A stretch of 33,852 bases of DNA from positions 1-33,852 of IMG/VR virus record IMGVR_UViG_3300045110_000262, one strand, 5' to 3'. Below, one piece after another: positions 5,005 through 9,363 of the stretch. Position 1 is the stretch's first letter. The number at the start of each line of letters is the position of its first letter. The translations under genes were made by a program, and so were the position numbers. Below the pieces are notes generated by a model. The model had not been told where the DNA came from. It saw only the letters and a list, made by a program, of their open reading frames with translations, and did not search any database. This DNA comes from a virus.

Positions 5005-5972
5005 TCGACGCGCTCGGTAGCGAGCCGCACTTCGTCGATCACGTCTTGCCGATCTGGCGGGCGCTGCCCGATGAGGTCCGGGGCATCTTCTATCTCCGCA
5101 CGCCGCGCGACGGCGTGGTGAACCAGGCAGTCGGTCGGGTGCCGCCCGGCGGCAGACCGATCCTTGTGGCCTCGATCGGGGACTTCAAGCGGGTGTCGGG
5201 GCGACCGGTGGCGTTGATGGAGCACGGCTGCGGCCAGTCGTTCGGCGGTGGCGAGGGCCGGATGGCCAACAGCTCGTCGTATGCCGGCGGTGCCGGCCGC
5301 GGTGCGAACCTCTTCCTCCATCCCGGCCCGCACCCCGCCGCGAGAGATCGCGCCCGCTATCCCGAGACGCGCATCGAGATCGTGGGCTGCGCGAAGCTCG
5401 ACTGCCTTCCCCGACGCGACGGCGACGGCCCCCCAGTCGTCGCCGTCGCGTTCCACTGGGATTGCCGCGTCGGGCCTGAGACGCGCTCGGCCTGGCGGGC
5501 GTTCGACCGGGCCGTCGTGCGGCTGTCGAAGTCGGGACTCGAGGTGATCGGACACGGGCACCCGCGGATCTTCCGGCGCCTCGCCGCCTGGTACGAGCGG
5601 CACGGCATCGAGCCCGTCCGTTCGTTCGAAGAGGTCTGCCGGCGCGCCGACGTCTACGTCAACGACGCCAGCTCGACCCTGTTCGAGTTCGCCTCCACCG
5701 GTCGGCCGGTCGTGGTCATGAACCCACGAATCTACCGGCGCAGCGTGGCTCACGGGCTCCGGTTCTGGGAGGCGTCCACGGTGGGCGTCAACGTCGAGGA
5801 GGGCGAGGATCTGACGGCGGCCGTTCAGCAGGCGCTCGAGGATCCGGCCGACCAGCAGGCCGAGCGGGAGCGGTGCGTCGACCTCGTGTATGCCTACCGC
5901 TCAGGCGCAGCGGAACGGGCAGCCGACGTCCTCGTGGATTGGGCGAGCGATCGCGCGACCGCCGCGGCGTGA
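5001..5972 (+). CDS. CDP-glycerol glycerophosphotransferase-like GT-B enzyme
   Basis: 323 residues. The C-terminal half resembles the nucleotide-binding lobe of the TagB/TagF family, which transfers glycerol-phosphate or related groups onto glycans. It has a VAVAFHWDCRV strand, VIGHGHPRIFRRLAAWYE, then VYVNDASSTLFEFASTGRPV (Asn221-Ser225), equivalent to the D-x-SS-hFhDF motif of that family, and VVMNPRIYRR. The N-terminal lobe is less clear (VASIGDFKRVSGRPVALMEHGCGQSF). It is the first of three overlapping glycan-active genes inserted between portal and capsid. The substrate cannot be told from sequence. A role on the virion or on host surface glycan is inference. Confidence 0.55.
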   Translation: MIDALGSEPHFVDHVLPIWRALPDEVRGIFYLRTPRDGVVNQAVGRVPPGGRPILVASIGDFKRVSGRPVALMEHGCGQSFGGGEGRMANSSSYAGGAGRGANLFLHPGPHPAARDRARYPETRIEIVGCAKLDCLPRRDGDGPPVVAVAFHWDCRVGPETRSAWRAFDRAVVRLSKSGLEVIGHGHPRIFRRLAAWYERHGIEPVRSFEEVCRRADVYVNDASSTLFEFASTGRPVVVMNPRIYRRSVAHGLRFWEASTVGVNVEEGEDLTAAVQQALEDPADQQAERERCVDLVYAYRSGAAERAADVLVDWASDRATAAA

Positions 5973-6688
5973 ACCATTACCTCCTGACGCGCTCGGCCTA
6001 CAGCCAGGCGGTGCCCATCCAGCGCAACCGTGCGCGCCTCCGGCTCACGATCGGCGTCTGTGCGCGGTCGCTCGCGGCGCAGACGAACCGCGACGTGACC
6101 TGGCTCGTGCTCGTGGACCTCGAGGACCCGCTCCTGCCGCAGCGGACCGCGGCGTTCATCTCGTCGGGCCTCGAGGTAATCATCGCGCCGGCTGGCGACA
6201 TCGTCCGCGACGACGTGCACGACCTGCCGTGGGGCCCTTGGAAGCAGTACATCGACTGGACCGATGCCACCCTGACCACGCGCATCGACGACGACGACGC
6301 CTTCGCGCCGTGGGTTCTCGCCAACTACCGCGAGAAGGCCGATGCGTGGGCCCGCCGCAATCCGAAGCGGCGCCTCGTCCTGACCCTGCCGACGGGCTAT
6401 CGCGTCGCCGACGGCAAGGTGAACCAGCGGACGGACCGGGTCTCGCAATTCTCGTCGCTCTACGCACCCAAGGGCGACCACGGGACCGTGATGGACATGA
6501 ACCACACGCGGGTACGACGGCTCGCGCGGCCGATGACGGCCTCGACGGATCCGGGCTGGCTGTGGGTGCGCCACGACCAGACGCGCAGCGCGCGCAGCCG
6601 CGCCTCGACGATCGAGCGAGACAAGATGGTCGTCGCGTCGCAGGCTGTCCGCGACCTGTTCCCGGTCGACTGGTCGCTGCTCGGGTGA
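5969..6688 (+). CDS. GT-A-like glycosyltransferase (putative rhamnosyltransferase family)
   Basis: 239 residues from a GTG overlapping the previous stop. The N-terminal half has VTWLVLVDLEDPLLPQRTAA followed by an acidic metal-binding motif, TRIDDDDAFAPW (Asp107-Asp110), which is the DxD-type site of GT-A glycosyltransferases. The arrangement (long spacer, R-h-DDDDA-hxxW-h) is like the putative rhamnosyltransferase family of bacterial and phage origin. A later segment, FSSLYAPKGDHGTVMDMNHT, may shape the acceptor site. Spacing shows it is co-translated with its neighbours. Donor sugar and acceptor are unknown. Confidence 0.6.
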   Translation: MNHYLLTRSAYSQAVPIQRNRARLRLTIGVCARSLAAQTNRDVTWLVLVDLEDPLLPQRTAAFISSGLEVIIAPAGDIVRDDVHDLPWGPWKQYIDWTDATLTTRIDDDDAFAPWVLANYREKADAWARRNPKRRLVLTLPTGYRVADGKVNQRTDRVSQFSSLYAPKGDHGTVMDMNHTRVRRLARPMTASTDPGWLWVRHDQTRSARSRASTIERDKMVVASQAVRDLFPVDWSLLG

Positions 6689-7269
6689 CGCTCCAGGTCG
6701 TCGGCAAGGGGCCGTCGCTGTTGCGGCTGACCCGCGCCGACTTCGGCCCGGGCCCGGTCCTGACCCTCAACCACGCCATCACGGCCGTGCGACTGCTCGG
6801 CCTGCCGAACGAGATCTTCACGATGCAGAAGGACGGCTGCGTCGTGCACGACGTCACCAGCACCGTTCCACTCGGCTGCGTCTGCCCGAGCCCGCGGATG
6901 GTGCCGCCGCTGCCTGGTGAGACCCTCATCCTGTCGGCGGCCGAGTCGTCGCGCTGCTTTCCGGATCACCGACCGAGGGTCGTCGTCGACGTCGAGGCGC
7001 TCGGTTGCCGGTGGAACACGATGTCGGTCGAGGTCGCGGTGCGGCTTGCGAAGGCGATGGGCCACGACTCTCTGCGGATGCTGGCGTTCGACGCCTACAC
7101 GAGCCGCGACCACCGGCGGGTCGATGGCGACCGCCTGGTCAGGGTCGGCGGCAACGCCTACACCCAGGGCGATAGGCGGGCCGATCGCTGGGCACGGGCC
7201 AACGGGCTGCGCATCCAATGGCTTGACGTCAGGCGCTCGTCTCGCGTACGGTCTCGCCTAACGACATAA
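6685..7269 (+). CDS. Sialyltransferase/DUF115-like Rossmann protein
   Basis: 194 residues from a GTG overlapping the previous stop. It opens with LQVVGKGPSLLRLTRADF and VLTLNHAITAVRLLGLPNEI, then FTMQKDGC. A G-x-GPSL loop followed by a strand ending in N, and a later D in a hydrophobic strand, is how GT29 sialyltransferase-like and DUF115-type proteins look. These act on glycans or nucleotide-activated groups. C-terminal residues ~125-170 contain NTMSVEVAVRLAKAMGHDSL and MLAFDAYT, a second Rossmann-like segment. It is the third gene of the glycan cluster, and the candidate capsid promoter lies inside its 3' end. The family call is tentative. Confidence 0.45.
   Translation: MTLQVVGKGPSLLRLTRADFGPGPVLTLNHAITAVRLLGLPNEIFTMQKDGCVVHDVTSTVPLGCVCPSPRMVPPLPGETLILSAAESSRCFPDHRPRVVVDVEALGCRWNTMSVEVAVRLAKAMGHDSLRMLAFDAYTSRDHRRVDGDRLVRVGGNAYTQGDRRADRWARANGLRIQWLDVRRSSRVRSRLTT
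7223..7252 (+). promoter_or_regulatory. Candidate promoter of capsid module
   Basis: TTGACG at 7223-7228 and TACGGT at 7247-7252 are separated by 18 bases, a fair sigma-70-type promoter for a GC-rich genome (5/6 and 3/6 matches). Transcription would start near 7259, at the stop of the preceding gene, giving a leader of about 97 bases before the capsid ATG. This is prediction from pattern only. Confidence 0.4.
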
Positions 7270-7309: not shown

Positions 7310-7349
7310 GGCCTCCGCGCTAGTGCCCTGAAGCGCAGCGTAGGAGGCC
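7310..7349 (+). promoter_or_regulatory. Leader hairpin holding the capsid ribosome-binding site
   Basis: GGCCTCC (7310-7316) is the exact reverse complement of GGAGGCC (7343-7349). Inner pairs CGCT (7318-7321) with AGCG (7337-7340) or GCGCT with AGCGC extend the stem. The 3' arm contains the AGGAGG ribosome-binding site of the ATG at 7357. A second, smaller inverted repeat, CCGGC/GCCGG, lies upstream near 7273-7302. The stem could throttle translation of the capsid gene; being followed by TTTTCCT, it could also act as an attenuator. Confidence 0.45.
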
Positions 7350-7356
7350 TTTTCCT

Positions 7357-9363
7357 ATGGCAGACAGCGTCGATACCGGCGCATGGGACGGCGGGCAGGC
7401 GATGTCCGATGCCGCGCAGTCCGATGACCCCGCCGCGGCCTATGCCGCCATCTGTGCCGGCCGTCGTGACGGCGACCCGGCCTTGCAGGCCACGTGGGCG
7501 CTGCCACACCACTCGCACCCCGGTGATCCGCCCAACGTCGACGGCGTCCATGCCGCGCTGTCGCGGATCAACCAGGCACAGGGCTTGACCAACCGCGACG
7601 CCGCGCAGGCGCACCTCGACAGCCACATGACCGCGATCCGGGCGGCGGAGGAAGACGGAGGGATGATGTCGAACACCGAACCAGAGGTCGAGCTCGGCGA
7701 GCACCGGACGCTCGACCTCGAGGCCGACTTCACGACGCTGTCGGTCAGCGAGCGTCGGCTGGGATTGAAGCTCCTCACCTACAACGCCATCGTCGACTCG
7801 CGCTACGGGCCGATCATGTTCGAGCCCAAGGCGTTCGGTGCGGTCGACCCGAAGTCGGTCCGGCTCCGGATGGACCACGCTGACCCGCCGACGGGGCTCG
7901 GGCAGTCGTTCACCGACAGGGCCGACGCGCCGTACATGGACTTCAAGGTTAGCAAGACGCAGCGCGGCGACGAGCAGCTCACGCTCGCCAACGACGGCGT
8001 CTCGCGCGGCGTGTCGGTCGGCTTCGACGACGTCGGCAGTGGTCCCAGCGCGAAGCTAGTCGACGGGCGCAGGGTGCTCGTCTACGGCCCGAACTCGGCC
8101 CGGTTGGCCGAGGTCTCCACCACATGGCAGCCGACGTTCCCCGTGCCCCAGGCCGGCGTCGTCTACGTCCTCTCGAATGCCCCGGAAGGGGAGAAAGGAA
8201 CAGGCCCGATGGCCGAGAACGAGCAGGAGGCTCCGGTCGTCGGGGCCGGGATCGACTACGACCGGCTGACCGGCGCGATCGTCGCGGCGAGCCAAGACAA
8301 CGAGCGCGACGGGAAGATCGACAAGATGCTCGGCGCGTTCGAGCAGATGATCGAGCTCCAGCGCGCGAACTTCGCCGTCCCGCAGGCGGGCCCGACCAAG
8401 AAGCCGAAGCTCTCCAACTGGGTCGAGTTCACGCTCCGCCGGATGCGTGGCGAGAACATGTCGAGCGGCGACCTCAAGCGCCTGGCGCTCGACGACGTGG
8501 TCATCAGCGAGCAGCCGGGCCTCGTGCCCGACGTGTTCACGGCCGACTACGACGACCTCATCAACGAGGATCGGCCGTTCCTCAACTCGACCCGCCGCAT
8601 CTCGGCGCCGGTGTCGGGCGACACGTTGACCCTGCCGGTCATCACGACCCGCGCGGTCGCTGGCACGCAGGCGGGCGGCGAGAAGACGGCCGTCACGACC
8701 ACGGCCACCAAGGTCGGGACCGGGACGTTCGCGTACCAGTCCGTGTTCGGCGGCGCCGACCTTTCGATCCAGTTCATCAACCGCGCGCAGCCGGGCTTCT
8801 TCGAGATCCTGACCGGCGACATGGCGATGGCCTACGCGCTCGACGCGGAGGAGAAGGCGATCGCCGCGCTGATCGCGGGCTACACCGATTCGGCCGGCAA
8901 CTCGCACGTCCCGGTCGACGGTGGCGCGCTCGATCCCGAGAACCCCAACTTCGGGGACGCGTGGATCACCTCGATCACATCGGGCTACAAGCGAGCCCCG
9001 ACCAACATCTGGATGTCGGCTGCCGCGGTCGGCGCGTTCATCGACGCCAAGGCGCCGTTGACCAACGCGCCGCTGTACTCGAACCTCGCCGCGTCGTTCC
9101 TGGCCTCCGGCGGCCCTGGTGGCACGCTGTCGGGTCTGCGCCCGGTCTACGTGCCGGCGCTCGACGTCCTGTCGGTCTCGGGTGAGATGGTCGACGTCAT
9201 CGTCGGCCCGTCGCGCGGCTTCGTGTGGGCCGAGGATCCGGCGCTCACGCTGCAGGCCGACGTGCCGTCGGTGGCCGGTCGTGACATCGCCCTCGCGGGC
9301 GGCATCTTCCCGGCGCCCCGCTACGCGGACGCCTTCACCACGTACACCATCGCGGGCAGCTGA
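7357..9363 (+). CDS. Prohead protease-major capsid protein fusion
   Basis: 668 residues in three parts. Residues ~35-95 form a helical module with WALPHHSHPGDPPNVDGVHA and GLTNRDAAQAHLDSHM, known as an N-terminal extension of some phage proteases. Residues ~105-270 are an HK97-type serine protease (S78/U35), with catalytic His174 in RMDHADPP and Ser220 in GVSVGFDD. Residues ~285-350 are helical and scaffold/delta-like, and ~355-668 form the HK97-fold major capsid protein (PGLVPDVFTADYDDLINEDR, DALDAEEKAIAAL region, AGGIFPAPRYADAFT). Normally protease and capsid are separate genes. In-frame starts with good ribosome-binding sites occur at 7663/7666 and 8209, so separate products may also be made. 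Confidence 0.88.
   Translation: MADSVDTGAWDGGQAMSDAAQSDDPAAAYAAICAGRRDGDPALQATWALPHHSHPGDPPNVDGVHAALSRINQAQGLTNRDAAQAHLDSHMTAIRAAEEDGGMMSNTEPEVELGEHRTLDLEADFTTLSVSERRLGLKLLTYNAIVDSRYGPIMFEPKAFGAVDPKSVRLRMDHADPPTGLGQSFTDRADAPYMDFKVSKTQRGDEQLTLANDGVSRGVSVGFDDVGSGPSAKLVDGRRVLVYGPNSARLAEVSTTWQPTFPVPQAGVVYVLSNAPEGEKGTGPMAENEQEAPVVGAGIDYDRLTGAIVAASQDNERDGKIDKMLGAFEQMIELQRANFAVPQAGPTKKPKLSNWVEFTLRRMRGENMSSGDLKRLALDDVVISEQPGLVPDVFTADYDDLINEDRPFLNSTRRISAPVSGDTLTLPVITTRAVAGTQAGGEKTAVTTTATKVGTGTFAYQSVFGGADLSIQFINRAQPGFFEILTGDMAMAYALDAEEKAIAALIAGYTDSAGNSHVPVDGGALDPENPNFGDAWITSITSGYKRAPTNIWMSAAAVGAFIDAKAPLTNAPLYSNLAASFLASGGPGGTLSGLRPVYVPALDVLSVSGEMVDVIVGPSRGFVWAEDPALTLQADVPSVAGRDIALAGGIFPAPRYADAFTTYTIAGS
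7647..7668 (+). promoter_or_regulatory. Internal in-frame ribosome-binding site and start at protease boundary
   Basis: A purine-rich run, GGAGGAAGACGGAGGG (7647-7662), is directly followed by ATGATG at 7663 and 7666, both in the frame of the fusion gene. The start falls exactly where the helical N-terminal module ends and the protease begins (MMSNTEPEVELGEH). It would give a product lacking the first ~102 residues. Spacing from the second GGAG to ATG 7666 is short but workable. Confidence 0.4.
8190..8211 (+). promoter_or_regulatory. Internal in-frame ribosome-binding site and start for capsid-only product
   Basis: GGGAGAAAGGA (8189-8199) lies about nine bases before ATG 8209, which is in frame with the fusion and begins MAENEQEAPVVGAGIDYDRL. 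The site is at the protease/capsid border and would yield a 384-residue scaffold-plus-capsid protein, the usual size for an HK97-type capsid precursor. This is one of the best ribosome-binding sites in the window. Confidence 0.5.

Follow-up and report, generated by a model that had tools for sequence, protein, structure and literature searches.

A single open reading frame in the window (the entire virus record of 33,852 bases analysed here) encodes a predicted protease fused to an HK97-type capsid protein and appears to be a two-product gene, in which a braked start for the fusion and a nested start for the capsid part alone share one frame (probability about 0.8). Such a gene would probably supply few protease-bearing and many plain capsid subunits. 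The domains of the fusion, the conserved signals of the internal start and the hairpin in the leader are all seen computationally.

Domain architecture of the fused gene

The frame (7357..9363, plus strand, as are the parts of this gene and its leader described below) runs uninterrupted from an ATG first codon through 668 residues and comprises an N-terminal module (7357..7662, residues 1-102), a protease domain, scaffold-like helices and a capsid domain. The protease domain (7744..8178, residues 130-274) is delineated by invariant residues and a fold match. Its putative catalytic residues, His174 (7876-7878) and Ser220 (8014-8016), are invariant in the 18 sequences of the family that were compared, catalysis itself being predicted. 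An AlphaFold model of the whole 668-residue protein has low overall confidence (pLDDT 58); in the predicted structure, residues 130-274 match the assemblin fold (e.g., the VZV protease with a Z-score of 9.5 and T4 gp21 with a Z-score of 9.4). Residues 285-668 modelled alone yield a better prediction (pTM 0.67), which resembles the HK97 prohead, D3 and encapsulin chains with Z-scores of about 15 over about 220-240 residues, that is, most of the chain. Since this separately folded part is of the HK97 type, a start at 8209 would yield a complete capsid subunit resembling HK97 gp5, with a short helical stretch ahead of the capsid fold according to the model.

The 551-position profile of the 'major head protein' family phrog_2263 matches across both domains (residues 140-648, E-value 2.3e-34). 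A search with the Pfam S78 profile gives no match for the window protein, and two relatives, L038 and Erin, score above its threshold. The N-terminal module matches no Pfam or PHROGs family. The original prediction that one frame encodes both a protease with catalytic His174/Ser220 and an HK97-fold capsid is thus borne out by the open 668-codon frame, the fold matches and the invariance of both residues. The long frame immediately upstream of the capsid gene (5890-7269) has no PHROGs or Pfam family match.

Start signals inside the frame

The predicted capsid-only product (8209..9363, 384 amino acids beginning with MAENEQEA) would be initiated behind an SD at 8191..8199 (GAGAAAGGA). Under the assumption of a standard anti-SD, which may not be that of the host, the computed SD pairing energies are -10.6 kcal/mol for 8209, -9.5 kcal/mol for 7663 and -11.1 kcal/mol for 7666, and all three rank among the strongest of the 34 in-frame internal starts.

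Comparison with relatives gathered from viral contigs (about 42 to 73% identity; 19 distinct genes including the window gene, related and hence not independent) singles out the site at the protease-capsid border. All 19 genes carry a start codon in the border column (ATG in 9, GTG in 9 and TTG in 1), and a purine-rich SD run is found a few bases 5' of that codon in each of them. In 15 of the 19 genes, no other in-frame internal ribosome site is stronger: the border site is the best in 14 of the first 18 and second or third in the other 4, and it ranks first of 27 in the later-found relative L066. Where the border residue is valine, it is encoded by GTG every time, compared to 28% of the valine codons gene-wide (chance about 1.5e-4, with close pairs counted once). 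The AAA codon accounts for only 10 of the 315 lysine codons across all 19 genes, and 8 of these 10 are located within the six codons before the border site, where GGA and ACA are likewise enriched (Fisher test values of 6e-11, 2e-7 and 9e-8 for AAA, GGA and ACA, respectively, with the relatives treated as independent). Synonymous resampling per gene gives a modest signal (geometric mean 0.05) as the EKG peptide on its own already calls for purine-rich codons.

The same preference for purine codons in the linker is compatible with a scheme in which translation yields the full-length protein alone and the protease releases itself by a cut near residue 285; the purine run would then cause pausing or be the imprint of a constraint on the linker peptide. 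The well-established cleavage of scaffold regions by HK97-type proteases also counts in its favour. This scheme nevertheless appears very unlikely given the correctly spaced start codon in 19 of 19 genes, including the invariable use of GTG for valine and the single TTG. Furthermore, the SD is kept while the linker peptides around the border change (EKGTGPM, EENEV, EGANPV, KEDPV and QGDTTV), so that the border DNA is not explained by the protein sequence. Thus, the comparison across relatives confirms that the predicted start signal at 8209 is more than chance, and the internal start is very probably real.

The original prediction also placed a strong ribosome-binding site and ATG at 7663/7666 and proposed a third product, a protease-capsid protein without the N-terminal module. 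The candidate start, an ATGATG behind GGAGG runs (7663..7668), is present, and the SD of 7666 is the strongest in-frame internal one in the window gene and is fairly open. Nevertheless, the site is not kept in the relatives that possess the module: the ATGATG of L003 follows a weak SD, the SD of L002 is also weak, and no equivalent exists in L017 or L018. The signal being weak or missing in these relatives, 7663/7666 is not counted as a start, and of the proposed internal starts only the capsid-only one at 8209 stands above chance, all 19 genes sharing the start codon, the SD and the rare synonymous codons there. Most relatives lack the N-terminal module altogether. In L067 (2992-4491), the module is part of a separate protease gene, and the capsid gene starts 150 bases later, which indicates that the module belongs with the protease. 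Because 7663/7666 is not conserved and the module travels with the protease, three products are not supported; this arrangement seems improbable and was rejected. The module itself (WALPHH...HLDSH; 7366-7662 in the window) varies among relatives as an intact unit with clean borders, either present or missing behind the first residues of the protein.

The leader hairpin over the full-length start

The SD of the full-length start, AGGAGG (7342..7347), is buried in the 3' arm of a predicted leader hairpin (7310..7349; the 5' arm begins at 7310 with GGCCUCCGCGCU and the 3' arm extends to 7349) which is identified by folding, arm swapping and opening cost. In the window, opening this SD costs 13.9 kcal/mol. 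Folding predictions place the full-length SD in a stem in all 18 leaders of the close family even as the stem sequences diverge: GGCCUCCGCGCU pairs with AGCGUAGGAGGCC in the window and AGGACCACUGAGUC with GACUCAGGAGGUCCU in L011, and the upper stems of L009 and L013 pair GUCCU with AGGAC. The MAFFT alignment of the leaders is poor at the divergent stems, and the pairing of the arms was therefore tested directly. In this arm-swap test of 16 leaders, the 5' and 3' arms score -26.6 with their own partners versus -19.1 with the arms of other groups (sd 4.1). The mean cost of opening the SD is 12.1 kcal/mol for the full-length start versus 1.9 kcal/mol for the internal start; for 22 control strong ribosome sites in the window, the mean is 5.3 kcal/mol and none reaches 10. 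The whole internal site, including the start codon, takes 8.3 kcal/mol to open, a cost that a ribosome translating from upstream could relieve. In the distant relative L066, the SD of the apparent full-length start (2992) is weak, and neither a similar hairpin nor the difference in opening cost is seen; the N-terminal module and the internal start are kept.

Under a different interpretation, the hairpin attenuates transcription or is cut during RNA processing, which would affect both products alike and impose no translational brake. In many relatives, a pyrimidine-rich, often U-rich stretch indeed follows the stem on its 3' side. However, a terminator scan makes no call in the leader, and the U-run is not conserved, being interrupted or missing in L014 and L035, in contrast to the SD in the stem, which is invariant. 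An ordinary terminator was accordingly rejected, and the broader attenuator or processing role is considered unlikely. The hairpin, conserved with compensating pairing, would act as a translational brake on the full-length start. Since the SD of this start is locked in a stable hairpin, the fusion product should be rare. The earlier proposal of a few full-length proteins among many capsid-only subunits thereby gains support as regards the low share of the fusion, and the ratio itself is inferred.

Under the two-product reading, entry at 7357 would yield the full protease-capsid fusion, which would be rare given that its SD is held in the stable leader hairpin. Entry at 8209 via the accessible SD would yield an abundant 384-residue subunit that is similar to HK97 gp5 and combines scaffold-like helices with the capsid fold. 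The fusion and the capsid-only subunits might then co-assemble through their shared capsid part, which would bring proteases into the procapsid in limited number, and the protease would subsequently trim the scaffold regions and itself. We infer the use of both starts, their ratio, the co-assembly and the later cleavage from the features described above.

Related fusions and nested genes in other viruses

The window protein as a direct query gives no phage matches, and annotated phages were reached with distant relatives as queries; a scan of genome contigs found no relatives in named host genomes. Fusions were found in Microbacterium, Arthrobacter, Gordonia, Rhodococcus, Curtobacterium and Streptomyces phages. 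Homologous capsids also exist as separate genes (e.g., the protease and capsid genes are separate in the Mycobacterium phages MooMoo and MadKillah), which was counted in favour of the two-product reading.

Among the 20 fusion genes with a placeable protease end (motif ends were set by hand), 16 have their strongest internal ribosome site in the interval between the protease and the capsid; the count of start codons in that interval would predict 2.5. This shared layout adds support to the internal start at 8209. The computed probability, 2e-13, is overstated given that an initial inspection preceded the choice of intervals and many of the genes are related. The fusion members tested represent two PHROGs families (2263 and 3270) and several divergent lineages. 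Among the cultured relatives with this layout, the predicted internal Met is residue 166 in the Microbacterium foliorum phage Erin, residue 160 in the Arthrobacter phage KylieMac and residue 278 in the Gordonia phage Chikenjars. The other 4 genes, from Berka, Whytu, Idaho and EricDab, have no clear border start. In the Gordonia phage EricDab (L059), the strongest internal ribosome site, at residue 117, precedes the protease and is not at the capsid border. In three Arthrobacter phages (L045, L050 and L053), two successive internal starts are observed, the first (residues 165-246) before a scaffold-like stretch and the second (residues about 241-306) just before the capsid, so that two nested products are possible.

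The hairpin was considered as a general trait of fused genes and rejected: the mean opening cost in 18 public fused genes is about 3.9 kcal/mol for the full-length SD vs 3.8 kcal/mol for the internal SD, and no such difference as in the close family is observed.

Several known systems share parts of this arrangement. In herpesviruses, UL26 encodes a protease of the assemblin fold, the fold matched here, and UL26.5 is a nested in-frame product without the protease; the nested product there is the scaffold and comes from its own transcript, whereas the capsid protein is encoded separately. The nested genes C/Nu3 of phage lambda were reportedly described by Shaw and Murialdo in 1980, as the title of their work (cited in PMC8508860) has it. 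The lambda assembly protease gene contains the start of a further product, as is predicted for the window gene, and an internal start codon with an SD in the same frame is found in 19 of 19 genes of the window family. The lambda protease is of another type, its nested product is the scaffold and its capsid protein is the product of a separate gene, whereas the nested product here is a predicted capsid subunit. Salmonella phage Gifsy-2 is said, in the title of Effantin 2010 (listed in PMC8538268), to possess a 'tripartite capsid gene', which by that title and general knowledge is likewise a single gene for protease, scaffold and capsid; the Gifsy-2 protease is ClpP-like, in contrast to the assemblin/S78-like protease of the window. 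HK97 has an S78-type protease (gp4) and a scaffold-capsid subunit (gp5) to which the predicted 8209 product corresponds, gp4 and gp5 being separate genes whose counterparts are fused in the window.

Gene fusions of protease and capsid are already known and, in the available part of one account, are described as one gene with both functions and a single product (PMC5513430). Genes annotated as 'major capsid and protease fusion' in actinophages (Arthrobacter clusters AM, AU and AN, Rhodococcus RRH1, Microbacterium EE and Gordonia DJ) resemble the window gene in that both domains are in one frame, several belong to phrog_2263 and the domain border of most carries a strong internal start. Unlike the window gene, they have neither the SD-burying leader hairpin nor the N-terminal module. 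A full-text literature search, with most subscription journals outside its scope, found no report of a nested start or SD-burying hairpin in such fusions, and relative to the known fusions the nested capsid start and the leader hairpin appear to be new.

It is about an even call whether fused protease-capsid genes are two-product genes in general, with the conserved hairpin in the present family setting a low dose of the protease and possibly acting as an operator responsive to proteins of assembly. If the nested starts are true, the capsid product would have been missed in many annotations, and the leader hairpin would provide a second control of the fusion/capsid ratio, separate from the nested start.
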